A stretch of DNA of 64,000 bases from Malus domestica (Eukaryota > Streptophyta > Magnoliopsida > Rosales > Rosaceae): positions 31,922,001 through 31,986,000 of the forward strand of contig NC_091667.1 of NCBI RefSeq assembly GCF_042453785.1, in the 5' to 3' direction. The notes beneath the pieces were generated by a model. It had not been told where the DNA came from. It ran no database searches and was given only the letters and a program-made list of their open reading frames with translations. The position numbers and the translations under genes were made by a program. This document shows, in pieces, positions 9,859 to 46,190 of the stretch (its first letter is position 1; each line of letters starts with the position of its first letter).

Positions 9859-12800
9859 CTATGTGTCTGTGATAAGGTGTGCCAAATTACAGAGTGTGTC
9901 GGGAAGATGTACAAGGCTTTTGCAGTTTCTCAGATTTAAATACCGAAGCCCCGTAAGCTGTTCAATCCAGGGGGAAAGCTCTTTGATAGATGTTCCATCC
10001 AAGAAAAGATATCTTAATCCTTCCATATTTTCTTCAATGCTTGGAAACACCTCAAATTTTGTAGAACCGGAAAGAGAGAGAGAGACAAGGGACTTGAGCT
10101 GAGAAATGCTGCTCGGAAGACTCTTAAGTTCCACGCAATATTTCAGGCTTAAATAACTCAACCCCGTGAGATTATTAATTGACAGCGGTAGTTCTTTAAT
10201 TTTTGACCCGGATAAATCAAGCTCTTCTAACTCCTCAATACCTTCTAAAATCTCTGGAAACATCTCAAGATTGGAGCAGTCATAAAGATTAAGGGTTTTG
10301 AGAGATTTCATACGAATGCTGCTTGGAAGACTCTTAAGTTCCACGCAATGTTTTAGGTTCAAATGACTCAACCCCGTGAGATTATTAATTGACAGGGGCA
10401 GTTCTTTAATTTTGGACCCGGATAAATTAAGCTCTTTTAATCCCTCAATAACTTCTGAAATCTCTGGAAACATCTCAAGATTGGTGCAGCCATAAAGCTT
10501 AAAGGTTTTGAGAGATTTCATACGAATGCTGCTTGGAAGACTCTTAAGTTCCACGCAATGTTCTAGGTTCAAATGACTCAATCCCGTGAGATTATTAATT
10601 GACAGGGGCAATTCTTTAATTTTGGACCCAGATAAATTAAGCTCTTCTAACTCCTCCATACCTTTTGAAATCTCTGGAAACATCTCAAGACTGGAGCAAC
10701 CAAAAAGATTAAAGGTTTTGAGAGATCTCATACGAATCTTGCTGGGTAGACTCTTAAGTTGCTTGCAATGTTTTAGGTTGAAATGACTCAACCCCGTGAG
10801 ATTATTAATTGACGGGGGTAGTTCTTCAATTTTTGCCCCGGATAAATCAAGCTTTTCTAACCCCTCAATACCTTCTGAAATCGATGGAAACATCTCAAGA
10901 CTAGAGCAGCCATAAAGATTAAAGGTTTTTAGACATTTCACATGAATGCAGCTTGGAAGACTCTTAAGTTCCTCGCAATGTTTTAGTTTGAAATGACTCA
11001 ACCCCGTGAGATTATTAATTGACAGGGGCAGTTCTTTAATTTTGGACCCGGATAAATTAAGCTCCTCTAACTCCTCCATACCTTCTGAAATCTCTGGAAA
11101 CATCTCAAGACTCGTGCAACCATAAAGGTTAAAGGTTTTGAGAGATTTCATACGAATGCTGCTTGGAAGACTCTTAAGTTCCTTGCAAAGTATTAGGTTC
11201 AAACGAATCAACCCCGTGAGATTATTAATTGACGAAGGGAGTTCTTTAATTTTTGACCCGGATAAATCAAGCTCTTCTAACTTCTCCATACCTTCTAAAA
11301 TCTCTGGAAACATCTCAAGATTGGAGCAGCCATAAAGATTAAAGGTTTTAAGAGATTTCATACGAATGCTGCTTGGAAGACTCTTAAGTTCCTCGCAATG
11401 TTCTAGGTTCAAATGACTCAATCCCGTGAGATTATTAATTGACGAGGGCAGTTCTTTAATTTTTGACCAGGTTAAATTAAGCTCTTCCAACTTCTCCATA
11501 CCTTCTAAAATCTCTGGAAACATCTCAAGACTAGAGCAGCCAGAAAGATTAAAGATTTTGAGAGATCTCATACGAATTTTGCTGGGTAGACTCTTAAGTT
11601 CCTTGCAATCTTTTAGGTTGAAATGACTCAACCCCGTGAGATTATTAATTGACGGGGGCAATTCTTTAATTCTTGACCTGGATAAATCAAGCTCTTCTAA
11701 CCCCTTAATCACTTCTGAAATCTCTGGAAACATCTCAAGGCTCAAGCAGCCAAAAAGATTAAAGGTTTTGAGATATTTCATACGAATGTTGCTGGGTAGA
11801 ATCTTAAGGTCATGGCACGAATTCAGATTCAATAAAACCAGGTTTGTAAGAGTCGAAGTAGACGGGTGAACCTTAACTAACCTTGTACAACATTGAAGAA
11901 TTAGCCTCTCAAGATTCGGCACATTTGTGAAGTCAGGGGTTTCCTTAAGGTATTCACAATAACTTAAATTGATGAATTTCAACGTTTTCAGCGTCTGTTA
12001 AAACATTCAAGAAAACATGCATTACTTAGTAAAACAGCTCACTCAAAACCCAAACATTTAAAAGAAATAAAAACATGTAATGATTGTACGTACCTGGGTT
12101 CCTTCCCAAAGTCGGTCAATGAGACTAAATTGCATGTCAAGTTCAACAAGATTTTTCAATTGAAAGTTGGACGGCAAAGACTTGAGAGGGAATTCAAACA
12201 AGGAGAGATACCTCAAGTTAAGTAACTTAAGGGGCCCAATCAGGTGGTGTTTGTAGTAATCTTCAAAAATTGAGCCCTTATGACCGATCTTGAGAAGTCT
12301 TAGTTGAGTCATACTAACAAAAGCTTCAGCATTTAAGCATACCCAGTCTGAGTACGAGAAATCCACGAATATGCTTTCAATTGATTCCGTAGCCTGTGCA
12401 AATCAAAGTATTAGAAAATACAGAGAACCTTAGTTTAGATAATGAAATTAATGCTTGTTTCTTAAAGAAGCCGTTTGATAATTATTTCGTCTTCAGTTTA
12501 ATATTGTTTTCAATTTTCAATTATTAAAACAATGAAACCTAAAAATTAAAAATTAAAAACAAAAATGGTTATCAAACGGGCCTAAGTAATTGATTTTGGT
12601 CAAAAGTTGAAGCTTTCTACTAACAACCACATAAGAAAGACTTCTCACCGTATTTTGAGTTAGCACGTGATGAACATCTTCATAACTCCACAACCTACTT
12701 CGTCTCCCAGGCTCTCTGATAGATTCTTGGCGAACGATTTCCCGACCCATTTCCTCTAATGAATCATGCATCTCTAGTTCCCCCTTCTCTGAGACAGTTA

Positions 12801-31739: not shown

Positions 31740-32259
31740 ATAAATAAATGGTTAAGAAATTTATATAAATTTAAGAGCCAAAATTGACAAGTATAAAATC
31801 GATTTTTAATTGGATAAACAGTTAGTGCACCTGATTGTAGGGAATGGTTATGCTCATCGCTTAATTTCATCATTGGATCAGTTTAAGTTTTAAAGTTTGT
31901 GAAATGGACAGATACAAATTTTAAAATTTAACTTCAGTCAATAATAATAAATATGGTAGTGAAAAAAAAATGCACCAGTGATTTGTGGTTTAGAGACACA
32001 CTCTCAAACTTAAATAACAAGTTTCATGCTTTCCAACAACACAAAAATTTTATAACTAAAAATCAATCAAAACATAATAATTGAATGAACGAGGATTTCT
32101 TTTATTTTTTCCAAATTTCCTGAAGGTTTTTTCTATAAAATTTGTAGTGTCATGATTGCCTTAAGAGAATCATAAATGTGTTCCTTGAAAAATAATATGA
32201 AACCATATTTTGAGTTCTTATGTTTATTGTTTTAATTCGATCTATCGTTTGAAGCCGCC

Positions 32260-33205
32260 TGTTTGGGCCCAAAATAATAGTTTGGGCCGAGTGTAGAGCC
32301 ATTCTCGGCCCGGAAGGCCTTGCGACAAGAAGACCATGGATCGTTCAGCTTATGGGCTTCCAAACCTAGGCCAGTTAGGTCAAAATGCAATGACAAGCCG
32401 AGTCCTGATACAATAGGGATTCTCGGCAGGATTAACAACCTAGAAGCGGATAGGGCTCGAATAAGGACTAGGTTCACAATCCTAATGAAAACAGGACTGG
32501 TCGAGGTGATATTGATCCGGAGAGGGAAAACCTAGTCCGAATGGGATTCTATCTCAGATTCGGGGTCCAGTGCTATAAATAGCGGAAGCTGTGCATCAGG
32601 AAAAGCCCCACAAAAATCAATACAAAATTGCCCTGCGCAAACTCTCACAACTTGAGATCTTTTTCTTTTCCTTTTTCGCTGACACATCTTCCGTTGGCAT
32701 CAACAGCACTGTGGAAGCAACCGGTGATATCTTAAGTCGGCATAGATAGCTCTGTCACCGTAGAGTCGGTCGGTCTCGCAGTATCTTCCGTTGGCATCAA
32801 CAACACTGCGGCGAGAACGGTCGATTGCCTATCCAAGTCTCGGTCGAGAAGGGTTTTCGAATCCTTGTTGGTCGAGGTCATCTCATTAGCCTTCTCGGCG
32901 AGGTGAGGTGTTACAGTTATTACATTCGGCACATTGTAAGCCGAATTCGGTTCGTGAACTTTGTAAGAAATAGCAGCCTTGTCTTCAGGCTCGAGAACCC
33001 AAGAGGCCGAGACGCGTTCCTTTCTCGGCCGCAATCGCAAGACGCAGAAGTCAGTAGCGCGACCCAACGCAGCATCATCAAATTTACTCCTCGGCCGAGC
33101 CTCGGCCGACGAGTTGGCACGCCCCGCAATCACCGAAGGACGTAGTTAGCTTAGAATATATTCGGCCTGCGCGCCACGTAGGCTTGGTAGATTTTAGGGT
33201 CAACA
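32260..33205 (+). repeat. 5' LTR of the gypsy element
   Basis: Starts TGTTTGGGCCC and ends GGGTCAACA. A TATA-like GCTATAAATAGC lies at about 32573-32584, and downstream a CATCTTCCGTTGGCATCAAC unit occurs twice (about 32687 and 32779). The short inverted terminus is TGTT...AACA. Confidence 0.9.
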
Positions 33206-33249
33206 TTTTGGCACGCCCAGTGGGACCCAGTGCTAAAACTACGAAGTTC

Positions 33250-36200
33250 ATGCCAATTGAAACGCGATCGGTAAAAAAGAAAACAGCTATGGGAAAATCA
33301 ACAGCCGATTTACCGATTCAGAACGTAGGACAAAGTGTGCCACAGGCGCAGAATCCCCTTAGCACCGGGACACCTGAGTCCACAAGTGCGACTCGCCGAG
33401 AAAGGGAAGTTAATCTCGGCGGTCAACACCGCAGTCTAGAAATCCCTAACAGGAACACTTGTGTTCTCAATGAAGGGATAGTGGAGGATTGCGACGAGGA
33501 TGGCGGTGAAGGATCTGACCCACCAACAAGGTCGTTTCTTCGAAAGCGACTCGACGAGCAGTCTCGGTCAGTTGAGCAGACGTTTAGCCGAGGTATTGAC
33601 AAGCTACATGACGTGATACTCAATTCCACTGAGCAGCAAACCAGACTGCTCGAAATGCTGGTTAGTAAATTCAGTGACGGCAGGCCTTTCGATCCTCTCC
33701 AGCGCTTGCCACCAAGAAATAATCCGTTACCAATGGTACAGGCCGAGCCAATTCCTGCTCGGCCCAAACCAATTGACTTGGAAAAGGTCGGAGGGTCAAA
33801 TAGTAGGTCGGACGGAATCGACCAGAGGGTCGAAGCAACACCTGTTGATATGACCGAGGTTCAGCGGATGATCGACTCGGCCATGAAGAAAGGGCCGAAG
33901 TTTCCTAAGTTTATCCATCCGTACCCGGCCTACATAGAAACGTTCGGATATCCGAAAGGTTTCAAGATTCCGGATTTTAGCCTTTTTGCCGGTGAATCGT
34001 CCTTGTCTTCGTTGGAGCACGTGGCTCGTTTCACCGCGCAATGCGGCGATGTTCATAGTGATTTCCATAAATTACGGCTGTTCAACTTCTCGTTGACCGG
34101 CTCGGCATTTGCTTGGTATATCAATCTCCCTCCTAATTCCATCCAAAATTGGGAGGAGTTGGTCGAGAAATTCCACGAGCAGTTTTATCGACCAGGGTTG
34201 GAGGTGTCGGTTTCTTCATTAGCAAGGATGGCTCAGGCATCAGATGAGTCCCCAATGGATTATCTTACCAGGTTCAAATCAGCCAGGAATTGGTGCCGAG
34301 TACCCTTGCCCGAAGTCGAGTTCGTCCGGCTTGCTTTGAACGGCCTCGACGTCGAATACAAAAAGAAATTCTTGGGGGCAAATGTTCGGGATATGTATGA
34401 ATTAGCCCAACATGTCGAACAGTATGATTATTTGCTCCGCGAGGAAAAGATTTCGAAAACTCCGTCTCGGGGGACGATTTACAAGAATCCTACCGTCAGT
34501 TATGCGTCAACCGAGGATGAATGCGTTAGTGTGGATGCGGCTGAGATAGTAATAGATAAGCCATACGTTTGCAAGGCCTTGACTCAAGTTGACTCCAGGG
34601 AAGTCAAAAGCCGCTCGGCCACTGAAGGAACATTGAAATCGTCAAAAGTGTATACTTTTGATATTACAAAGGCTGACGCAATTTTTGATCAACTGTTGTC
34701 AGCAAGGATCATCAAACTTCGGCCTGGTCACAACATTCCCAAGGCCGAAGAGCTTAAAGGAAAGGTGTATTGCAAATACCATAATTCAAGTAAACATACG
34801 ACAAACAATTGTGTCGTATTTCGAGACAACGTCCAGAGCTGGATTGATAATGGAAAACTGAAATTTCCAGAGAAGAAGATGAGTATTGATGCTGATCCTT
34901 TCCCCACAGCAACCGTGAATATGGTCGGTGCATACCTACCTAAGGACAAAGGAAAAGGGAAGGCCGAAGTTGTTGCGACGCAAGACTTTCGTACTCAGAA
35001 TTCTCGGCCACGTTTCATGGCCGATTTTCGTTCGAACAAACCACCTACAGCTTTAACAGGACCTGCTATTGTTAAACCTATGAGGGATTATAGCACCGAT
35101 GAAGATAGTGGGACGGCGGTTTTTTGCAGTAAATGTAGAGCGAAGGTCGGCAGTGAGCCAGAGAAGAAACCATCTTCGCCTATCACAGAACGACCTACGG
35201 CCGCAATTCAGCAAAAAGCAGCCGGCGTCGGCCGACACCAAGGGGTTTTTGATAGGCTCGGCCCAAAAGTGAAGATGGAAGAGACATCCTCAGTCAGGCG
35301 GCGCCTCGATTTTGGCGCTTCATTTTATGACGAGGACTATTATACGCGTAATTCTGGTAGTTCGGAATCGTCGCGGAGTCAAAAAACCTTCAAACCTCCC
35401 GAGCCTAAAGATCAACGTTGGTACACGTATCATTCTTTGAAAGGCGTCTACACCGCGTTGTCCAAATCCCAGAAATGCCGGCACCAGAGGATAGATTGCA
35501 TGGCCCGTCGGCAGGCAGCCCAAGAAACTTCGGCCCCTAAATGGCGGCCGAAGGACACAGTTGCTACTGGTGATGAACGACCATCTCCAGCTATTATGAC
35601 AGAGTTGGGTCAGGGGAAACGGTTGGTCGACCGAGATATCGAGACCACGTTCGAAGAAGCCGATAAACGGATCAAACTTCTTCTTCGCCCAGAGGAGATG
35701 AAGGCACGCCTCGAGCATTTCAGGCAAGAGGCCGAGAGCAAATTAGCCCAGCCAGCTATACAAGAACCGTTGATTAAAATTCGACGGAATTTGCATCCAC
35801 CATTCCTTGGGGAGGCTTTAGAATATATGCGCGAATTCCATAAGAAACATTCGGCCAACGATCTGTATGGTTTGCCGAAAGCATGCCAGGACACCATTGA
35901 TCTAGTCCTGACTTGTCCGGACGCCGAGCGCGTCATCCAGAAGACCTCTGACCCGGGATTGAAGGCAAGGTTCCAGCACATACGAGAAGCCCGTGTCCTT
36001 GGATTTGAAGTCGACCCATACACTGATATCGTTGCAGCCGACCTTCCTTTCTCAATGGAGGATCTTCAGTATTTACGATATCACTTCGAAGTATTTTCGG
36101 CGGTTTCTCTCTTCGGCCTCACGACCGATGAAGTAGCACGTGTTGCACGTCTGGATGCTTATCTCGATACCAGAGATGCCCGGCTATACTACCAAGAGCA

Positions 36201-37218
36201 GGTGCAGGTCCTGACCCCAAGCACACTGTCAATCTCAACCTCGCCTGCGGCGGTCACACAGAACCAACAAGCTGCCGAAGCAGCACCGCAGGTTCAAACC
36301 CTCGAAGAAGGGACAGAGGAGTCTTTTTGTCCAACTCTGACAAAAACAGAGCCCGCAGTCGTCGACCAAACGAGGGATGAGGTTAGCAAGGAGGGTCCCA
36401 ACCCGATGGGCCCGTCAGTCTTGGATAACATGGAAATTAGTATGGTCCATGTGTTACCTGCTGATTTTCAATCAAGCACGGCTCAACCGAATTTCCTCGA
36501 TGGTGATGTAGTCGCCGAGGAAACTGGCCATGTGGATTTTGTGTCTATTGCTGAAGATGAGTCAACAACGAAAGATGACAGTCTGAAGGCCGCTTTGACC
36601 GAATTATTTCCTCGTTCGTCATCGGCCGCACTCCACCATTTAAAGCCATTGTATGTGACGGCCCACATCGAGGGATATCCCGTTTCTAAAGTTTTTGTCG
36701 ACTGTGGCGCGACCGTCAATATCCTGCCTCTGAACATCATGAAGGCCTTGCGTCGCTCGAACGACGAACTTATTCCGTCAGGGATCACAATGAGTAGTTT
36801 CGTCGGCGACAAATCGCAAACCAAGGGTGTACTTCCGTTAACTGTGACTATTGCCGGTCGCACTCACATGACCGCTTTTTTTGTAGTTGATTCCAAAACC
36901 GAGTATAATGCACTGCTCGGTCGAGATTGGATTCATCAAACCAGTTGTATTCCTTCCTCATTGTATCAAGTGCTTGTTTTTTGGGACGGCAAATCGGTCA
37001 CTGTTCACCCAGCCGATAACCAGCCCTTTGAAACTAACATGATCCAAGCACGGTATTATGATGACCACGTCGGCTACATTACTTTGCAAGGCTTCAATGA
37101 TGAAGGCCGGCCGACTCGGATTTCTGTACAGAAAGCTATCGAGGTTGGCGCCGAGACTGTCCACCAGGATTCGGCGAGACTCGGATTAGCCAATTTCCTC
37201 CCCGAGGCCGATGTCTGA
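33250..37218 (+). CDS. gag-protease ORF of the gypsy element (fossil element part)
   Basis: An open frame of about 1,322 residues from the ATG at 33250 (MPIETRSVKKKTAMGKS). The retrotransposon gag domain lies roughly at residues 240-400 (SLEHVARFTAQCGD, SAFAWYINLPP, SPMDYLTRFKSARNWC). A compact Cys/His motif, CKYHNSSKHTTNNC, is near residue 510. The aspartic protease is near the C-terminus (VFVDCGATVNILPL, then YNALLGRDWIH). It overlaps the pol frame by 8 bases in a different frame. Confidence 0.85.
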   Translation: MPIETRSVKKKTAMGKSTADLPIQNVGQSVPQAQNPLSTGTPESTSATRREREVNLGGQHRSLEIPNRNTCVLNEGIVEDCDEDGGEGSDPPTRSFLRKRLDEQSRSVEQTFSRGIDKLHDVILNSTEQQTRLLEMLVSKFSDGRPFDPLQRLPPRNNPLPMVQAEPIPARPKPIDLEKVGGSNSRSDGIDQRVEATPVDMTEVQRMIDSAMKKGPKFPKFIHPYPAYIETFGYPKGFKIPDFSLFAGESSLSSLEHVARFTAQCGDVHSDFHKLRLFNFSLTGSAFAWYINLPPNSIQNWEELVEKFHEQFYRPGLEVSVSSLARMAQASDESPMDYLTRFKSARNWCRVPLPEVEFVRLALNGLDVEYKKKFLGANVRDMYELAQHVEQYDYLLREEKISKTPSRGTIYKNPTVSYASTEDECVSVDAAEIVIDKPYVCKALTQVDSREVKSRSATEGTLKSSKVYTFDITKADAIFDQLLSARIIKLRPGHNIPKAEELKGKVYCKYHNSSKHTTNNCVVFRDNVQSWIDNGKLKFPEKKMSIDADPFPTATVNMVGAYLPKDKGKGKAEVVATQDFRTQNSRPRFMADFRSNKPPTALTGPAIVKPMRDYSTDEDSGTAVFCSKCRAKVGSEPEKKPSSPITERPTAAIQQKAAGVGRHQGVFDRLGPKVKMEETSSVRRRLDFGASFYDEDYYTRNSGSSESSRSQKTFKPPEPKDQRWYTYHSLKGVYTALSKSQKCRHQRIDCMARRQAAQETSAPKWRPKDTVATGDERPSPAIMTELGQGKRLVDRDIETTFEEADKRIKLLLRPEEMKARLEHFRQEAESKLAQPAIQEPLIKIRRNLHPPFLGEALEYMREFHKKHSANDLYGLPKACQDTIDLVLTCPDAERVIQKTSDPGLKARFQHIREARVLGFEVDPYTDIVAADLPFSMEDLQYLRYHFEVFSAVSLFGLTTDEVARVARLDAYLDTRDARLYYQEQVQVLTPSTLSISTSPAAVTQNQQAAEAAPQVQTLEEGTEESFCPTLTKTEPAVVDQTRDEVSKEGPNPMGPSVLDNMEISMVHVLPADFQSSTAQPNFLDGDVVAEETGHVDFVSIAEDESTTKDDSLKAALTELFPRSSSAALHHLKPLYVTAHIEGYPVSKVFVDCGATVNILPLNIMKALRRSNDELIPSGITMSSFVGDKSQTKGVLPLTVTIAGRTHMTAFFVVDSKTEYNALLGRDWIHQTSCIPSSLYQVLVFWDGKSVTVHPADNQPFETNMIQARYYDDHVGYITLQGFNDEGRPTRISVQKAIEVGAETVHQDSARLGLANFLPEADV

Positions 37219-40200
37219 CACCGATCGAGAAGCACGTAGGGCCGCGGTTTCATCTACTATGGAACGACTGCTGGCCCATTGGTATACTATATCTAAACAG
37301 CCAAATTCGGGCGTTAACCTCGTCGAGTTCCTGGCCGAAGGAGATAATGGTCCTGTTTTGTCTCTTGATAAAATTCAAGCCGCCCCGGCCGCGCTCGAAG
37401 ACCATCGGCCCCAAGTTAAGGATCCCCTGGAAGAGATTAATGTTGGGACGGCCGAGGACCCACGGCCTTTGTTTATTAGTGCTTTACTTCCCCAACAAAT
37501 GAAAGATGAGCTTCGTGCCTTGCTTACGGAGTTCAAAGATTGCTCTGCTTGGAGCTACCATGAGATGCCCGGCTTAGATCGTACTCTTGTCGAGCATGAG
37601 TTACGTATTAAACCCGGATGTAAACCTTTCCGTCAGCCACCGCGTCGATTTTCGACGGAAGTGCAACTCAGCATCAAGGACGAGCTGGTTCGGCTTTTGA
37701 AAGCCGGGTTTATTCGGACAGCTCGATATGTTGAATGGTTGGCGAATATCGTTCCTGTTTTAAAGAAAAATGGTGCACTGCGCATATGCATCGATTTCAG
37801 AAATCTGAATCTGGCAACTCCCAAAGATGAGTATACAATGCCGATTTCAGACCTGTTAATCGACGCCGCGGCGAATCATGAGATGTTATCCTTTATGGAT
37901 GGGCATGCTGGGTACAATCAAATATTCATCGCCGAAGCCGATGTGCATAAAACTGCTTTCCGTTGCCCGGGGGCACTCGGTACTTACGAGTGGGTTGTTA
38001 TGCCATTCGGCCTCAAAAATGCCGGCGCCACATACCAACGAGCGATGAACACCATCTTCCACGACTTAATCGGAACCATCGTCGAAGTTTACATCGACGA
38101 CGTTGTCATCAAATCTAAACGCCGACGGACACATCTGGACGACCTCCGACAGGCTTTCCTCCGCATGCGTCAGCACAACCTCAAGATGAATCCTGCCAAA
38201 TGTGCTTTCGGCGTGTCGGCCGGAAATTTCCTTGGTTTCCTCGTGCATCACCGTGGAATTGAAGTCGATGCGAATAAAGCACGCGCAATCGTCGATGCCC
38301 CACCCCCAACGACGAAGAAACAACTCCAGTCCTTGCTTGGCCAGATCAATTTCCTCCGCCGATTTATTGCTAACTCGGCCGGTAAAATGAAAGCGTTCTC
38401 CACGCTTTTGAAACTCAAGGACTCGGATAAATTCGTGTGGAACGGCGAGCATCAGGCGGCGTTTACACAGATCAAAGTATCCCTCACGAAACCCCCTGTC
38501 ATAGTTCCCCCTCGGCGTGGTAAACCTCTGAAGCTCTATATCTCGGCGGCCGAAGAATCTATCGGCTGCCTCCTCGCGCAAGACAATGATGCCGGCCGAG
38601 AGCAGGCTATATTTTATCTAAGCCGGAATCTCAATCAACCAGAGATCAATTATCCCGCCGTCGAGAAACTGTGTCTCGCCGTATTTTTCGCCGCATCCAA
38701 GCTCCGGCATTACATGCTCCCGTCGGTCACCCAAGTCATTGCCCAGACCGACGTTATCCGGTACATGCTTACCCGACCAATCGTCAAAGGCCGAATTGGG
38801 AAGTGGACAATGGCGTTGTCCGAATTTAGTTTGCAGTACGTGCCGCAGAAAGCTGTGAAGGGACAGGCGTTGGCCGATTTCCTTGCTCAGCACCCTTCGC
38901 CTTATGGTTTCGGGGATGCTGACGTCGAAATCGGCATGGTGGTGACCCGCGACAACTATTGGACGATGTATTTTGATGGTTCCAGTACTTCGTCTTCGGC
39001 CGGCGCGGGCATCGTCATTCAATCTCCTCACAACGATCGCTGGTATTTTTCGCTCAAACTGGATTTCGAGTGCACCAATAATCAGGCCGAATACGAGGCT
39101 CTTGTCATTGGTCTTGGCCTCCTTCTTGACCTTCGAGCCACTCGTGCCCTCGTCCTCGGTGATTCTGAACTCGTGATTAACCAAATTAATGGGTCTTTTC
39201 GTTGCATGAGTTGTACTCTGGCGCCCTACCACATGGTCGCCAGCTATTTGGCCGAGTCTTTTGACGGTATTACATTCGAGCATATTTCTCGGGTTCATAA
39301 TACCGACGCAGACGAGTTGGCTCAGATCGCCTCCGGTGCTCAACTCATGGGGGGCAAGCTAGGCCGGGAGATACCAATATTACGACAGCTATACCCGGCC
39401 TTGGTTAATCAGCAAATCCTCCGTCGAGACAATGTGATCCGCACCAGGGTCATGTTCTTGCCTTCGTTGTTGGATCGGCAGGACTCTATAGAAATTTGCG
39501 CGGCCGAGGCTATACCAGATGATTGGAGGAAACCCATTATGCAGTACCTTGATAATCCTAACGGGACACATAGTCGCAGGACACGGGTTCACGCCATGAA
39601 CTATGTCACGTACCAGAACGAGTTGTACCGAAAGGGCGAAGATGGTTTGTTACTGCTATGCCTCGGCCCCCAAGAGAGTGCTCGGGCGATCGCAGAGGTT
39701 CATGAAGGGGTATGCGGAGCTCACCAATCTGGACGGAAAATGCGATGGCTACTCCGACGACACGGCTATTTTTGGCCGAAAATACTGAAAGATTGTATCG
39801 AGTTTGCACGAGGATGCGTGCAGTGCCAAATCCATGGGCCTATACAAAGGGTCCCGGCCGAATCACTACATTCGGTCATTAAGCCGTGGCCGTTTAGAGG
39901 ATGGGCCATGGACGTAATCGGCAAAATCACGCCGACTTCTGGAGCTGCTAAGCATGCATGGATAATAGTCGCAACTGATTACTTTACTAAGTGGGTCGAA
40001 GCAAAATCATATGCCGAGTTAACATCTAAAGAAGTTTGCGACTTCGTGGAGGAACACATTGTGACTCGGTTCGGTGTACCAGAAACAATCATAACCGACA
40101 ATGGAACAATCTTCACAGCCGAAAGGTTTAAAGAATACACGGCAAATTTGAACATTCGGTTGGAGCAGTCCACACCGTATTATCCACAGGCGAATGGGCA

Positions 40201-40786
40201 GGCCGAAGCAAGTAATAAAGTGTTGATCGGCATCCTCGAAAAAATAATAAAAGACAGGCCTGGCATGTGGCATTTGAAGTTGAACGAGGCATTATGGGCA
40301 TACCGAACGTCGCCCCGATCGGCGACTGCAACAACCCCATACGCATTAACCTACGGACACGATGCAGTGCTACCAGTCGAGTTGAGCATAAATTCGTTGC
40401 GATTAATTGAACAAAGTAGTTTGTTTAGCGCCGAATACAATCAGTCCATGAGACAGGAACTAGAAGATTTGGAAGAAGCGCGACTTGACGCGTATAACTT
40501 ACTAGTGGCGCAAAAACAGATTGCCGAGCGAGCCTATAATCAAAAGGTGCGACAGAAAACGTTCGGCGAGGGTGAATTGGTATGGCAAACGGTGTTGCCC
40601 GTAGGACTAAAAGATCCTAGGTTCGGCAAGTGGTCGCCGAATTGGGAAGGGCCGTTCATTGTGCATAAAGTATACGGTAAAGGGGCGTATCATCTTAAAG
40701 ATCGGACTGGTGTGATTCACAAATTACCGATTAATGGGAAGTTTTTGAAGAAATACTATCCAGTTACTTGGGAAATGCGTGAGTAA
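37211..40786 (+). CDS. pol ORF: reverse transcriptase, RNase H, second RNase H, integrase
   Basis: An open frame of 1,191 residues. Reverse transcriptase: RICIDFRNLN, MPFGLKNAGATYQR and the active-site YIDDVVIKS at about residue 295. A first RNase H follows (LYISAAEESIGCLLAQ), then a second, archaeal-type RNase H domain (MYFDGSSTSSSAGAGIVI at about 580), the hallmark of Tat elements. Integrase has an HHCC zinc-binding region (HQSGRKMRWLLRRHGYFWP with CVQC) and the DDE core (DYFTKWVEAKSY, ITDNGTIFTAE, YYPQANGQAEASNK). Confidence 0.9.
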   Translation: MSDTDREARRAAVSSTMERLLAHWYTISKQPNSGVNLVEFLAEGDNGPVLSLDKIQAAPAALEDHRPQVKDPLEEINVGTAEDPRPLFISALLPQQMKDELRALLTEFKDCSAWSYHEMPGLDRTLVEHELRIKPGCKPFRQPPRRFSTEVQLSIKDELVRLLKAGFIRTARYVEWLANIVPVLKKNGALRICIDFRNLNLATPKDEYTMPISDLLIDAAANHEMLSFMDGHAGYNQIFIAEADVHKTAFRCPGALGTYEWVVMPFGLKNAGATYQRAMNTIFHDLIGTIVEVYIDDVVIKSKRRRTHLDDLRQAFLRMRQHNLKMNPAKCAFGVSAGNFLGFLVHHRGIEVDANKARAIVDAPPPTTKKQLQSLLGQINFLRRFIANSAGKMKAFSTLLKLKDSDKFVWNGEHQAAFTQIKVSLTKPPVIVPPRRGKPLKLYISAAEESIGCLLAQDNDAGREQAIFYLSRNLNQPEINYPAVEKLCLAVFFAASKLRHYMLPSVTQVIAQTDVIRYMLTRPIVKGRIGKWTMALSEFSLQYVPQKAVKGQALADFLAQHPSPYGFGDADVEIGMVVTRDNYWTMYFDGSSTSSSAGAGIVIQSPHNDRWYFSLKLDFECTNNQAEYEALVIGLGLLLDLRATRALVLGDSELVINQINGSFRCMSCTLAPYHMVASYLAESFDGITFEHISRVHNTDADELAQIASGAQLMGGKLGREIPILRQLYPALVNQQILRRDNVIRTRVMFLPSLLDRQDSIEICAAEAIPDDWRKPIMQYLDNPNGTHSRRTRVHAMNYVTYQNELYRKGEDGLLLLCLGPQESARAIAEVHEGVCGAHQSGRKMRWLLRRHGYFWPKILKDCIEFARGCVQCQIHGPIQRVPAESLHSVIKPWPFRGWAMDVIGKITPTSGAAKHAWIIVATDYFTKWVEAKSYAELTSKEVCDFVEEHIVTRFGVPETIITDNGTIFTAERFKEYTANLNIRLEQSTPYYPQANGQAEASNKVLIGILEKIIKDRPGMWHLKLNEALWAYRTSPRSATATTPYALTYGHDAVLPVELSINSLRLIEQSSLFSAEYNQSMRQELEDLEEARLDAYNLLVAQKQIAERAYNQKVRQKTFGEGELVWQTVLPVGLKDPRFGKWSPNWEGPFIVHKVYGKGAYHLKDRTGVIHKLPINGKFLKKYYPVTWEMRE

Positions 40787-40855
40787 AAAATCAATCCATT
40801 AAAATTGATAAGTATTTACAAATGAGTAGGACGGTTGGTTTACATTCAAATATAT

Positions 40856-43800
40856 CTAAGGAGAAGAGGGAAGAAGAGTGCTGAGCAAAGCCTTCAGCTC
40901 CAACCACCGCACGTCGGCCATGATGACTTCGGCCTGCCGATTCTTTTTATCCAGCTTCAGCCGCTCGACTCGTTTGTTGGCCGCCGCATACTCAGTTAGG
41001 CGATCCTTCCCGCCTGACTCGAAGTCCCTCGCAAGCTCAGAAGCAATGGCCGACCGACGTTTTGCTAGTTCGGCCATCTGACGGTCGAGCTCGGCTAACG
41101 TTTCTCCTTTTGCCCGTAGATCGTCAATCTTCGGACGGAGGGTGTCTTGAACGGCCATGGCGGCTTGCAGGTCCTGTTCGGCCTTCAGAGCAGTCTGGAA
41201 GATACTAAATGTCTCCCGAACGCGCTCCAAGGCAGACGATGCCCGGACAATGGCATCTCCGCTCAGGCGACCATCGGCTCCAAGGTCGTTCAGACACACG
41301 CCGAGCAAATCGAGACCGTTGCGCTCAAGAACTTGCGATGATGAGAGCGCTAGGACTTCTCGCAGCTGGGTTAGGGCACTTGGATCGGCAGCATCAGTCG
41401 AAGCGGCCGAAGGGCCGGACTCTGCAGTCGTGCTGGAGAGGAGGGCTTTGAATTCAACCTCCCATGAAGCCTGCACAAATAAACAAGGTTAAGTTTAAAG
41501 GAAGTCATGACAAGAATAGCAAGAAGGTGTCGTGTGTTAACCTGCCGAGAGGAGACCTCGGCCATGTCCCCAGGATCGTTGCTCGAACCTAAAGAACTCA
41601 ATGGCCGAGCCCAGTGTCTCAGATTGCTTCTCACTTCACGCGGCCGATGGAGGTTATCTACGTTTGATGGCCACTGAGGCGGCCAGGAAATATAGATAAC
41701 GCCCTTCGGCGCATAGAATTGACGGTGAAAAGAATGTATAGGCACCTGACATTTGGTATTTTCTTTGTTTAGAGGTCTAAAGCGGAAAAGTAATCAGGAG
41801 GAGACGAGTGAAGGTACTTACAAAGGCCGAGGTAACCTCCTGTGGAGGAATATGGAAGCCTTGGTCTTGGGGATGGACCGGCGATTCCGCCGTAGCCTCG
41901 GGTTCCTCGAGCAGCCGTTTGCCCCGGTCGGCTGCCGATGGGCCGACTGGCGCAACTGCTTCAGAGGAGGCAGGGACGCCCTGGTCCTGAGAAGGAACGA
42001 GAGGTTCGGCCACCGGGATCGGTTCCTCGACCGTGCGCTTGCCACGATTAACCGGGGAGGGGCCGGTTTGAACCGCCATCTCGGGTATTGGAGGAGGTTG
42101 TCGACGAGTATGAGGACGGTGCGCCAGCGGGACCTCGTCGCTCCCCTCGCTTTCGTCCAACACAAGGACCGAGGGCTTTGGATTCTTGGGAGAAGTTCCC
42201 TCGGTCGTAGAAACCGCCTGTTGAGAGACAGGTGCCTTCTCGGCAGAAGGAGGTACAACTGATGCGCCGGCCACAGAGGCAGGCCGCGCTGGTGCCGTCT
42301 CTGCGGCCGAGGCCGGCTGTGTCTCGACCCCAGAATGGCCGGCGGCGGGAGAAGAAGCACTGGGAGTCGTCGTGTGACTGGAGATAACGTGGATCTCCCG
42401 GGCACCCTTCTTCGCCATTTGTTTGACCCGCTTGGCTGGCGGGGAAGGCTCGACAGCCGGCTCGGCCTCTTGGCGAGGCCGTTTGATCAGCACGGCCCTA
42501 CCAGCGGGTTTGTCCTTTTGGGCCACGACCGATTTTTTCCCGGTCGTGGCAGCGGCAACTGCCTCCGTCTTTCTCAAAGGCCGACTACCTAAAAAGATAA
42601 AGACAACTCAGTAAGGCAACTCAATATGCAAGGTTGATGGAAAGGAAGAAAATGAAACCGGTACCTTGAGGATGAGGGGCCGAGGCCTTCTTAGGCCGGT
42701 CACCAAAGAGTCTGCTAAGCACGTCTTCGACCGGCGCACCAAAGAATTCCTGGGTGTATTGCTCCCACCACTCACCAAAGGTGTCGGTGCATTGGGTTTC
42801 CGGGGTGGCTGGTCGAAGGCGGAATTTTTGGCAGCGCTCTTGGAACTCCTTCACGGCGATTCTACATTCCTTCTCAGAGGAACGAGGTTCGCGTCCACGG
42901 CTTAGGACCGTTCGGGAGAAGAGAAGGGGGATAGGGCAGCCCTGAAGGTAGCCGAGCTGTCGGGCGAGGAAGTTCGGATGATATACTTCCCATCCTGACC
43001 GTTTCCCATCGCAGCCGAGAGGGAGGTCGCGGGCAAGCACAAACGACCCCCAGGTCTGACGGAGATCGGCGTCCTCCTCCGCGCTCCATGAGGAGATAGG
43101 CAGCCTGATGGAGGAAGGATAGTCTCGACGACGACATATTAGGAACTCGTCGTTGGAGAAGTCGTCGAGGGCGAAGAGGTACCGAAATACCTCTTCGGCT
43201 TGATGGGGAGGTGTCGGTCGAGAGGCCAATTGAGACCCAAGCGCCTCTGTTGGTGAGAATTCGGCTATGGCCGGCCGAAGGGAGGTGAAGTATACCTGCA
43301 ACCAGAGTTGGAAGACCCAGAGAGGACCATTCTGGTGCGGGTCGACCTTTTGGAGGGTCGCCTCGGCCAGGCAGCGGAAAAGTTGGGCGAGAATGTTGGA
43401 ACTCAGCGCCAAGACGTGACCACTGGCCAGGGCTTCGGCTACCGGCATGTTCTCGACCAAACACTTGTTTGACTTGGTACAACAAATGTATTTGTTGTAC
43501 CAGTAGAAGAGGAAAGCTTCATGCTCTCCCTCTCGCAGGTCCTCTTCTCCTCGGCCGGCGAAGTGAAGATAGAGGGTGTTGTAATTACAGAAGTTCTTGT
43601 GGAGCTTCTGAATATCTTCCTTCGACGGGATATGACCGTCACGGCTCAAGGTCTCGAAGGCCCGACGGTCGAAGAGCGTTTTCAGGTCGATATTCGACGG
43701 ATGCCCAGAGAGGGTCACGTCGACAGGGATCCCGGTCGCCGAAGTCCCCAGAATGGCAGTAATATCCAGGACGGTGGGACCCATGGGACCCAGAGGAAGG

Positions 43801-44225
43801 ACCATTGTGTTGGTAGCCGAACACCAGAAGCACAGAGCGGCTTGGAGAAGTTCCTTGTCGGGGACGATTTCCATGGACGAAAGGAGGATGGCGTCGTAGA
43901 TGCCAAGGGCCTTCCATTGCTCGCCGAAGAGGCGTTCCATTCGAACGACCCAGGCTGCCCAGGATGTGGTCGTCGAGGGCCAGGAGCCCTGGGGTTTAGC
44001 CGCATCCCATCGCGACCATTCAAACCCTCGAAGCAAGGGTTTTAGGCAGTGCTCCTGTAGAAGGCCGATGATAGTCGGCGGTATTGTAGCCTTGAAGAGA
44101 GGACCCAGGATTTGGTACTGGGTGTTCATGTCGTTTTCAAACCGGATGGTCTTGATCGAGCTCCGATCAGGGATCTTCGGATGTTGGTCACATTCCCTGG
44201 AAAGCTTGGAGATGAAGGATGCCAT
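40856..44225 (-). CDS. Antisense cargo gene of the gypsy element: plant mobile domain (PMD) protein
   Basis: A gene on the strand opposite gag-pol. The main block, 44225 to about 42664, starts MASFISKLSRECDQHP and carries a plant mobile domain (LGIYDAILLSSMEIVPD, LCFWCSATNTMVLPLGPMG, TVLDITAILGTSATGIP). The downstream block (about 42590-41820) is Pro/Ala/Ser-rich with basic, nuclear-signal-like KRPRQEAEP and PPAKRVKQMAKKG. A third block (about 41745-41545) includes VIYISWPPQWPSN, and a last block (about 41478-40856) is a Glu/Lys/Leu-rich helical, coiled-coil-like tail. GT-AG-type borders separate the blocks, so I read it as a four-exon gene. PMD proteins of plants (MAIN/MAIL1 family) act in gene silencing and development, and PMD genes are known in plant transposons. 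Function here is not known. Confidence 0.75.
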
Positions 44226-44367
44226 TATGAAAAAAGAAGCACGGAGTAAAAGGGTTTTTCTGGGTTGGGGATTTAAAGACGAAGACTCGGAATAGGAGAG
44301 GCACTAGAAATCAATGGCAGAGAATTTCGGGAAGTTTGAGAGCGTAAAAGTACAAAGGAGGAAACTT

Positions 44368-44382
44368 CGGTATTTATAGAGT
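44368..44382 (-). promoter_or_regulatory. TATA box for the antisense PMD gene
   Basis: Read on the minus strand, CTCTATAAATACC lies about 150 bases upstream of the PMD start codon. It is outside the LTR, so the cargo gene appears to have its own promoter, independent of the LTR promoter that drives gag-pol. Confidence 0.55.
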
Positions 44383-44851
44383 TGTGGGGGGAAGAGCAAT
44401 CGTTCGAAATTCAAAACAAAGGGCAAAATCGACCAAAGGAATTGTTGATCATGATGAACATTTGGGGAATGCGGTTGAGAAGACCGAAGGTTTTAGGGTT
44501 TTGGGGGCGCACGATTGCGTGTGACGGCTAGATTAATGACGAAAAGACGGTTCGACGACCGCACGATGACAAATGGGCTCACGGACTGAGGTAGTGGCTC
44601 GCGGATTGAGATAGTGGTCATAATGGCAAGACAGTTCAGGCTGCCGCACGCCTTAGACGTCATTATGTAGGATTGGCCATATTAGAGGACGCCACGTGGT
44701 GAGTAGGTTAGCAGGATCAAGATCGTGCGATCGTGCTCAATAAATGCGCCTTGGAACTCGGGTATGAGGATTCTGAGTGGTAGATTCGCTTCTTCAAGGC
44801 CGGAACTCGGCCGAAGATTGCAGGCCGAGGACCTCAGAAGCGAGGGGGCAA

Positions 44852-45797
44852 TGTTTGGGCCCAAAATAATAGTTTGGGCCGAGTGTAGAGCCATTCTCGG
44901 CCCGGAAGGCCTTGCGACAAGAAGACCATGGATCGTTCAGCTTATGGGCTTCCAAACCTAGGCCAGTTAGGTCAAAATGCAATGACAAGCCGAGTCCTGA
45001 TACAATAGGGATTCTCGGCAGGATTAACAACCTAGAAGCGGATAGGGCTCGAATAAGGACTAGGTTCACAATCCTAATGAAAACAGGACTGGTCGAGGTG
45101 ATATTGATCCGGAGAGGGAAAACCTAGTCCGAATGGGATTCTATCTCAGATTCGGGGTCCAGTGCTATAAATAGCGGAAGCTGTGCATCAGGAAAAGCCC
45201 CACAAAAATCAATACAAAATTGCCCTGCGCAAACTCTCACAACTTGAGATCTTTTTCTTTTCCTTTTTCGCTGACACATCTTCCGTTGGCATCAACAGCA
45301 CTGTGGAAGCAACCGGTGATATCTTAAGTCGGCATAGATAGCTCTGTCACCGTAGAGTCGGTCGGTCTCGCAGTATCTTCCGTTGGCATCAACAGCACTG
45401 CGGCGAGAACGGTCGATTGCCTATCCAAGTCTCGGTCGAGAAGGGTTTTCGAATCCTTGTTGGTCGAGGTCATCTCATTAGCCTTCTCGGCGAGGTGAGG
45501 TGTTACAGTTATTACATTCGGCACATTGTAAGCCGAATTCGGTTCGTGAACTTTGTAAGAAATAGCAGCCTTGTCTTCAGGCTCGAGAACCCAAGAGGCC
45601 GAGACGCGTTCCTTTCTCGGCCGCAATCGCAAGACGCAGAAGTCAGTAGCGCGACCCAACGCAGCATCATCAAATTTACTCCTCGGCCGAGCCTCGGCCG
45701 ACGAGTTGGCACGCCCCGCAATCACCGAAGGACGTAGTTAGCTTAGAATATATTCGGCCTGCGCGCCACGTAGGCTTGGTAGATTTTAGGGTCAACA
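44852..45797 (+). repeat. 3' LTR of the gypsy element
   Basis: Same length as the 5' LTR (946 bp) and nearly identical by eye. It is preceded by a polypurine tract at about 44839-44850. Confidence 0.9.
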
Positions 45798-45945
45798 CCG
45801 CCTCACCAAAAAGAAATTCATATCTATATTTTTTCTATAACGAGTGACTAATAAGTCCAACCATTTTTCAACACCACAAAATAAGTTACAACCTGAACAC
45901 TACCGAGCGATTAATGGGTCCAATCGTTTTGCCATATATATTTTT

Positions 45946-46190
45946 AAGGGAAATTTTATTTAGACCCTAAAACCTTATTTCCACACCCAACTTAAATATT
46001 TTTATCATTGAACTCTCCAATTTAACCCAAAATTAATGTGAGATAAGAAAAATATATTGAAAGGAGATGAACCCATATCAGCCCCCAACTCTCACCGCTT
46101 TCCGGCAACTTCTTCACTGATCGGGTAAATTTTTCGTGTCGGTGTCTTCTATTTTCAGGCTCCTTTTCCTTTCTCTTTGTTCTCATCCTC

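Follow-up and report, generated by a model that had tools for sequence, protein, structure and literature searches.

A young Ty3/gypsy retrotransposon of Malus domestica carries, on the strand opposite to gag and pol and between pol and its 3' long terminal repeat (LTR), a four-exon gene for a plant mobile domain (PMD) protein. The element occupies positions 32260-45797, LTRs included, of the stretch of DNA analyzed here (C7:31922001-31986000, 64,000 nucleotides; "the window"), and the gene runs from 44225 to 40856 on the minus strand. We favor the reading, with a probability of about 0.62, that this is a complete antisense gene with its own promoter and a spliced transcript, and that it would supply a nuclear accessory protein that works in trans to aid transcription of the family or to resist its silencing.

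The antisense PMD gene and its element

A sequence-only reading of the window had proposed an antisense, intron-bearing PMD gene inside a young gypsy element, and the coordinates, the strand, the three GT-AG introns, and the LTR comparison bear this out. The predicted PMD was found on the antisense strand: PF10536 matched residues 108 to 488 of the 534-amino-acid (aa) minus-strand open reading frame (ORF) at 42621-44225 (E = 3.3e-39), spanning positions 1 to 347 of the 347-position profile and scoring 135.5 bits against a gathering cutoff of 34.9 bits. In the exon model read from the sequence, the spliced frame has 3,147 nt, corresponding to 1,048 aa, and contains no internal stop. None of the three intron lengths (76, 76, and 71 nt) is divisible by three. 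The parts of the element and of the gene are listed below by window position.

32260-33205, plus strand: 5' LTR, 946 bp, TG...CA ends
33206-33228, plus strand: putative primer-binding-site region TTTTGGCACGCCCAGTGGGACCC, assigned from the sequence
33184-37218, plus strand: gag-protease ORF as listed mechanically, starting at a TTG in the LTR end
37211-40786, plus strand: pol ORF with reverse transcriptase (RT), RNase H (RH), second RNase H (RVT_3), and integrase (INT), from Pfam matches
40787-40855, minus strand: putative 3' untranslated region (UTR) of the antisense gene, 69 nt between the facing stops of pol and the gene, from its position
40856-41470, minus strand: exon 4 with the stop, helical-looking tail of 204 aa (sequence reading, alignment)
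41471-41541, minus strand: intron 3, 71 nt, GT..AG (sequence reading, alignment, genome-wide acceptor pattern)
41542-41745, minus strand: exon 3, 68 aa, no Pfam match (constant length in the alignment)
41746-41821, minus strand: intron 2, 76 nt, GT..AG (sequence reading, alignment)
41822-42588, minus strand: exon 2, basic, Pro-rich linker (sequence reading, alignment)
42589-42664, minus strand: intron 1, 76 nt, GT..AG (sequence reading, alignment)
42665-44225, minus strand: exon 1, ATG and PMD (PF10536 match, sequence reading)
44370-44379, minus strand: TATA box CTATAAATAC
44396-44416, minus strand: conserved upstream motif TTTTGAATTTCGAACGATTGC
44838-44851, plus strand: putative polypurine tract adjoining the 3' LTR, from the sequence
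44852-45797, plus strand: 3' LTR, 946 bp, TG...CA ends

The element is young, because its two LTRs differ by 1 mismatch in 946 and the target site duplication (TSD) CCGCC is present on both sides (32255-32259 and 45798-45802). A profile search matched Retrotrans_gag in the gag-protease ORF, with a protease match under Pfam's cutoff, and found the pol domains in the order RVT_1, RT_RNaseH, RVT_3, rve. An Rfam search across 32000-46000 gave no match.

Downstream of the PMD, the exon 2 linker contains KRPRQE...PPAKRVK, which we take to resemble a nuclear localization signal (NLS) and which is kept, with changes, in the copies displayed. Other stretches of the linker are presumably of the SUMO-interaction-like type. 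By eye, the exon 4 tail has a helical, coil-like appearance. A search of the PDB gave no sequence match to E = 1.

Within exon 1, we also observed a hairpin with 12-bp arms (TGGTACAACAAA/TTTGTTGTACCA) at 43474-43502. It overlaps the peak of the same-codon fraction of this exon (0.87, versus 0.64 overall), and the RNA fold z-score at 43440-43540 is -3.2; in some copies the dyad is partly broken.

Conservation across the family

Genome-wide searches covered 651 Mb in 19 contigs, and the loci found are given L numbers here. The PF10536 profile search found at least 118 places, host-type genes among them. The first 20 element copies were taken from among the best-scoring element-like places, so they lean toward intact copies. 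All 20 were collinear with the window element through at least the pol end, the gene, and the 3' LTR; L018 has an insertion and only the end of pol, and L019 has gaps. Three copies reached from promoter-motif sites outside the PMD list likewise carry the gene antisense to pol (3/3). Since these copies had all been found via the gene, a search with a pattern from the pol end, independent of the gene, was added, and it gave 192 places (reversed control, 0). One hundred of the 192 were listed and compared in part by eye with the gene-site lists, two-mismatch rows being left out, and at six listed sites no sign of the gene was seen. Four of them were examined, the remaining two being C6:6945699 and C12:18557171, and all four carry gene exons antisense to pol. 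Taken together, the gene is antisense to pol in 27 of the 27 family copies examined (20 + 3 + 4), none of which lacks it altogether, and it is thus no one-off insertion, the outcome that would have spoken against the sequence-only reading. In one copy, L045 (C15:11363500-11368500), exons 2 to 4 and the pol end were present and exon 1 was absent from the 5 kb fetched, reflecting either a deletion or an insertion beyond the examined stretch.

The window and 22 copies were then compared in a 23-row alignment, which excludes L018 (2.7-kb insertion) and the four pol-end copies. The GT..AG boundaries are kept in 22/23 rows for intron 1, 23/23 for intron 2, and 22/23 for intron 3, the exceptions being L019 and L033, with intron lengths of 69 to 90 nt. 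Exon 1 has 1,561 nt in 20 rows, exon 3 has 204 nt in all 23, and exon 4 has 615 nt in 22. In 19 of the 22 copies, exon 2 either has the length seen in the window or departs from it by a multiple of three; L009, L010, and L032 deviate. An uninterrupted spliced frame is present in 11 of 20 rows (window and 19 copies).

The TATA box lies 145 bp ahead of the ATG (44225), where the sequence-only reading had put it at about 150 bp, and is identical in 23/23 rows; splice sites and TATA box are kept down to about 77% identity. The upstream motif TTTTGAATTTCGAACGATTGC is exact in 20/23 rows and occurs at 243 places genome-wide with at most one mismatch. The core promoter block, delimited with the alignment already in view, has 10/70 invariant overlapping 10-mers, versus 0/256 in the introns and 3' UTR; the values were 0/116 in the 5' UTR and 5/412 further upstream. 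The gene promoter and the LTR have no 10-mer in common and share three 9-mers, one of which is CTATAAATA.

The sequence-only reading had also argued that antisense introns survive retrotransposition. In line with this, a 36-base pattern spanning the unspliced intron 3/exon 4 boundary occurs at 110 places in the genome (59 on one strand and 51 on the other, against none for the reversed control), while patterns of spliced junctions 1 and 3 occur at none (up to 3 mismatches, so that diverged copies could escape; junction 2 was not searched). Intronless processed copies, which would be DNA evidence of splicing, were thus not found for junctions 1 and 3. The genomic RNA holds only the complement of the splice sites; therefore, the introns stay unspliced and the gene passes in full to every new copy. 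Retention does not by itself show that the introns are useful, because there is no ready route for losing them.

To date other copies, the 5' LTR was sought for eight with an open antisense frame, and both LTRs were found in seven. They differ by 0 (L014, L013), 1 (L016, L028), 8 (L024, L025), or 12 (L021) mismatches, and a matching 5-bp TSD is present in six of the seven. As judged from these LTR pairs, the family has been recently active.

Three observations concern the history of single copies. L012, L022, and L023 have a common 75-nt in-frame enlargement of the exon 2 linker (842 versus 767 nt). The first stop is at codon 718 in L012, 519 in L022, and 914 in L023, so the enlargement was probably inherited by an open frame. 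L027 (C14:468054-476896) is a mosaic, window-like from pol to the middle of exon 2 (0 to 2% different) and L028-like over the rest of the aligned part (0 to 2%), and the switch, at the equivalent of window position ~42250, marks a clear site of recombination or template switching within the antisense gene. At L024/L041, the L024 LTR downstream of the gene precedes a primer-binding-site-like sequence, which suggests tandem elements with a common LTR.

Selection on the protein and its possible role

Ratios of nonsynonymous to synonymous substitution (dN/dS) were obtained by the pairwise Nei-Gojobori method with 7 representatives (21 pairs) for the exons and 6 (15 pairs) for pol. For exon 1, dN/dS was 0.07 to 0.23 over the 21 pairs. 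For pol, it was 0.06 to 0.14 in 14 of the 15 pairs; the fifteenth, window-L027, gave 0.45 at a dS of 0.005 and is little informative. In the 11 deep pairs, those with L026 or L019, the values were 0.09 to 0.18 (exon 1), 0.26 to 0.46 (exon 2), 0.07 to 0.25 (exon 3), and 0.13 to 0.22 (exon 4), and the introns differed by 0.25 to 0.40. Both L026 and L019 carry stops, so their dN/dS is raised. Furthermore, differences were in excess at third codon positions: exon 1 of the window versus L026 gave 78/59/237 (p = 2e-32), and with the window set against L026, L032, and L033, the excess reached significance in each of the four exons. Over all six pairs it was significant in exons 1 and 4, and in exon 3 it was not significant in the three close pairs. 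On these estimates, the antisense PMD exon is constrained about as tightly as pol. A chance ORF or a passenger, considered as a candidate, was rejected on dN/dS and third-position bias.

The Pro-rich, basic middle and the coil-like tail had been singled out as unusual additions to the PMD. Both are present, the tail as judged by eye, and they are not peculiar to a single copy: linker and tail are family-wide and under selection.

We conclude that the gene probably does something useful for the element. In the mechanism that we propose, an RNA polymerase II promoter (TATA box, 44379-44370; motif, 44416-44396) would drive a minus-strand transcript, to be spliced to an mRNA for the 1,048-aa protein with its PMD, basic linker, conserved 68-aa block, and helical-looking tail. 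The genomic RNA, with intron complements only, would escape this splicing and hand the whole gene to each new copy. The protein would be nuclear and act in trans on copies of the family, as an accessory factor that may promote their transcription or counter host silencing. MAIN and MAIL1, which are PMD proteins, act in transposable element (TE) silencing, according to passages of PMC5418596 and PMC7156037, and a counter-silencing role has already been suggested in PMC8616336 and, for MULE elements, in PMC5418596.

Several points weigh against this proposal. The full frame is broken in 9 of 20 rows, including L015 and L010, which are nearly identical to the window (99.7% and 99.4%). In four further, more distant copies, the TATA box is exact in two and not exact in the other two. 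Pairwise Nei-Gojobori estimation is simple, some deep dS values exceed 1, and close pairs are not always informative for exons 2 and 3 (exon 3, up to 1.22). The AlphaFold model of exon 1, with a mean predicted local distance difference test (pLDDT) score of 43.8, is too poor for use. Finally, the window PMD is 24 to 28% identical, over the aligned parts, to the host-type PMDs L001 to L003, and simple mimicry of MAIN/MAIL1 is therefore not favored.

The strongest competitor, which we still consider unlikely, is that the protein serves retrotransposition itself, in nuclear import or integration site choice, rather than transcription or counter-silencing. The NLS-like linker and the helical-looking tail would suit such a cofactor, and GENE23, the antisense protein of Grande, is nuclear according to a passage of PMC7264820; however, a promoter of its own on the antisense strand would be a strange arrangement for a particle component, and no tie to integrase or Gag was observed. 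Less probable again is that the transcript acts as RNA, pairing with the genomic RNA and giving rise to small interfering RNAs that limit the element's own copy number, with the ORF incidental. A minus-strand transcript would complement roughly the final 3.5 kb of internal sequence, and Vicient and Casacuberta propose a role of this kind for antisense ORFs in a passage of PMC7264820. Yet exon 1 has a dN/dS of about 0.1, the third-position bias extends over four exons in the deep comparisons (L026, L032, and L033), and the introns drift. RNA alone would not need such protein-level selection, which therefore speaks against an RNA-only role; an RNA role and a protein role could coexist.

That the gene is a captured host gene carried without benefit is very improbable. 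Pieces of host genes do occur in plant LTR elements at times (PMC7264820, in part), but this gene is found in 27/27 copies down to about 77% identity with an exon 1 dN/dS close to that of pol, values that largely refute a mere passenger. We give the least credence of all to the idea that the copies are relics whose gene lost its function recently. The broken frames, those of L010 and L015 above all, would be expected from it. Against it stand the open rows, the separate stops of L012, L022, and L023, and five open-frame rows with 0 or 1 LTR mismatches (window, L013, L014, L016, and L028); since only open-frame copies were dated, these do not imply that young copies are more often open.

Relatives, precedents, and meaning

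Two loci in the same genome resemble the antisense gene. L029 (C8:15099592-15106276) represents a second gypsy family, whose integrase end is 44% identical to the window pol; it encodes a 937-aa PMD protein in a single ORF on the strand opposite to the integrase, with a tail that is coil-rich by eye. L030 (C11:19890704-19896789) is a single-copy PMD gene with three likely exons and, again by eye, a coil-rich tail; its tail exon matches only itself genome-wide (E ≤ 0.001; 16 candidates, all scored). The window gag and pol had no match in the 15.6 kb around L030, and no LTR was found in its flanks, the sole repeat between them being 21 bp. The likely first intron of L030 follows the PMD in a phase equal to that of the element, but its distance from the conserved WW is 42 residues versus 33 in the window, so homology is no more than suggestive.

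In the trees, element PMDs group with L030 (100/100 and 98/97), apart from the host-type PMDs L001 to L008, while L029 falls elsewhere, and forcing it with the element PMDs was rejected (approximately unbiased test, p = 0.0005 and 0.006). These trees have long branches and contain no PMD-A, -B, or -C reference proteins, and the tested clades were chosen with a tree already in view. They hint at repeated entry of PMD genes into gypsy elements or, alternatively, at L030 being a domesticate or a relative of a donor. No alignment was obtained between exon 4 and the tails of L029, L030, or L001; the PMD with a coil-rich tail is therefore a common layout, its shared descent unproven. Beyond this genome, no relatives were found in plasmids, and 93 pattern stretches in viral contigs included none that was confirmed. 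A further PMD gene, L004 (C6:32377830-32381885), has a phosphatase-like start (TVVVVGDIHGQ) nearby, with a Pfam match under the cutoff, and resembles the PMD-PP7 fusions described in a part of PMC7156037.

The element itself belongs to the Tat clade. In angiosperms, Ogre and Retand are the Tat branches with a second RNase H between RH and INT (PMC6317226, in part), and the window element has the order RT-RH-INT with this additional RNase H. With Ogre it has in common that domain, which Retand also has, and the PMD extra ORF; PMD was reported in 57% of Ogre elements (Neumann 2019). The known PMD-bearing Ogre/Tat elements (PMD-A1/A2 clades; Ikeda 2017, in part) likewise combine a second RNase H with a PF10536 extra gene. 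However, the region separating gag-pro from pol, with a mean of 274 bp and an intron in the Ogre of pea and Medicago (PMC6317226, same part), is absent here, the two ORFs sharing 8 nt instead, and because of this we do not file the element as Ogre. The antisense gene of Retand encodes TRP28 (PF04195), for which the four exon ORFs gave no match to E = 0.1. Elsewhere in the window, at 10105-11808, a 210-bp unit is repeated about eight times in tandem with 88% matching; its length is divisible by three, and the repeats are perhaps coding.

Published work already covers PMD genes in gypsy elements, antisense genes in this position, and the suggestion of counter-silencing. An antisense gene between pol and the 3' LTR is known from the gene23 kind of Grande, which has its own promoter and a nuclear protein in the passages of PMC7264820 and PMC11963269 that treat it, whereas the promoter of the window gene is known from sequence alone. 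In these passages, Grande and other antisense genes encode TRP28 or no domain, unlike the PMD here. The word "intron" occurs 0 times in PMC7264820 and PMC11963269, and the passages on PMD-bearing Ogre/Tat elements describe no introns in their PMD genes, in contrast to the three of the window gene. Our literature search found no report of conserved introns in, or of selection on, such an antisense gene, with Steinbauerova 2011 and Gomez-Orte 2013 outside its reach.

More distant comparisons place the gene further. HBZ of HTLV-1 is likewise an antisense gene in an LTR element (PMC11963269, in part), but retroviral antisense genes have promoters in the 3' LTR (PMC10186651, in part), whereas the TATA box described here is in the internal region. 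VANC21, the anti-silencing protein of VANDAL21, is a model for a TE accessory protein (PMC8616336, in part); VANDAL21 is a class II element, and for the window protein such a role would be an analogy. MAIN/MAIL1 have PF10536 in common with the window PMD, which is far in sequence from the host-type PMDs of this genome, the proteins used for the comparison, and on a separate branch.

In Arabidopsis, RNA silencing is reduced by splicing, and RNA surveillance favors intronless transcripts as targets. We also entertain, as a long shot, that the antisense placement is itself a trick by which the element carries introns across its RNA stage: the introns, whose splice sites are retained as their remaining sequence drifts, might disguise the accessory mRNA as host-like, and a counter-silencing PMD could be made while the genomic RNA is silenced. 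If so, L030 would be kin of the captured gene or a later domesticate.

Whichever role applies, L030, to which the element PMDs are closer than to any other relative found, bears on whether such genes were captured or domesticated; whether genic PMDs derive from elements or the reverse was left open by Ikeda et al. in the part of PMC5418596 concerned. Antisense genes of plant LTR elements have so far been presented mostly as ORFs of unknown use, and a passage of a review called for the study of antisense and spliced transcripts (PMC7264820); here, a whole gene is modeled. With its introns and core promoter kept and selection on its protein close to that on pol, function, and not a passenger, is therefore the working assumption for this family.

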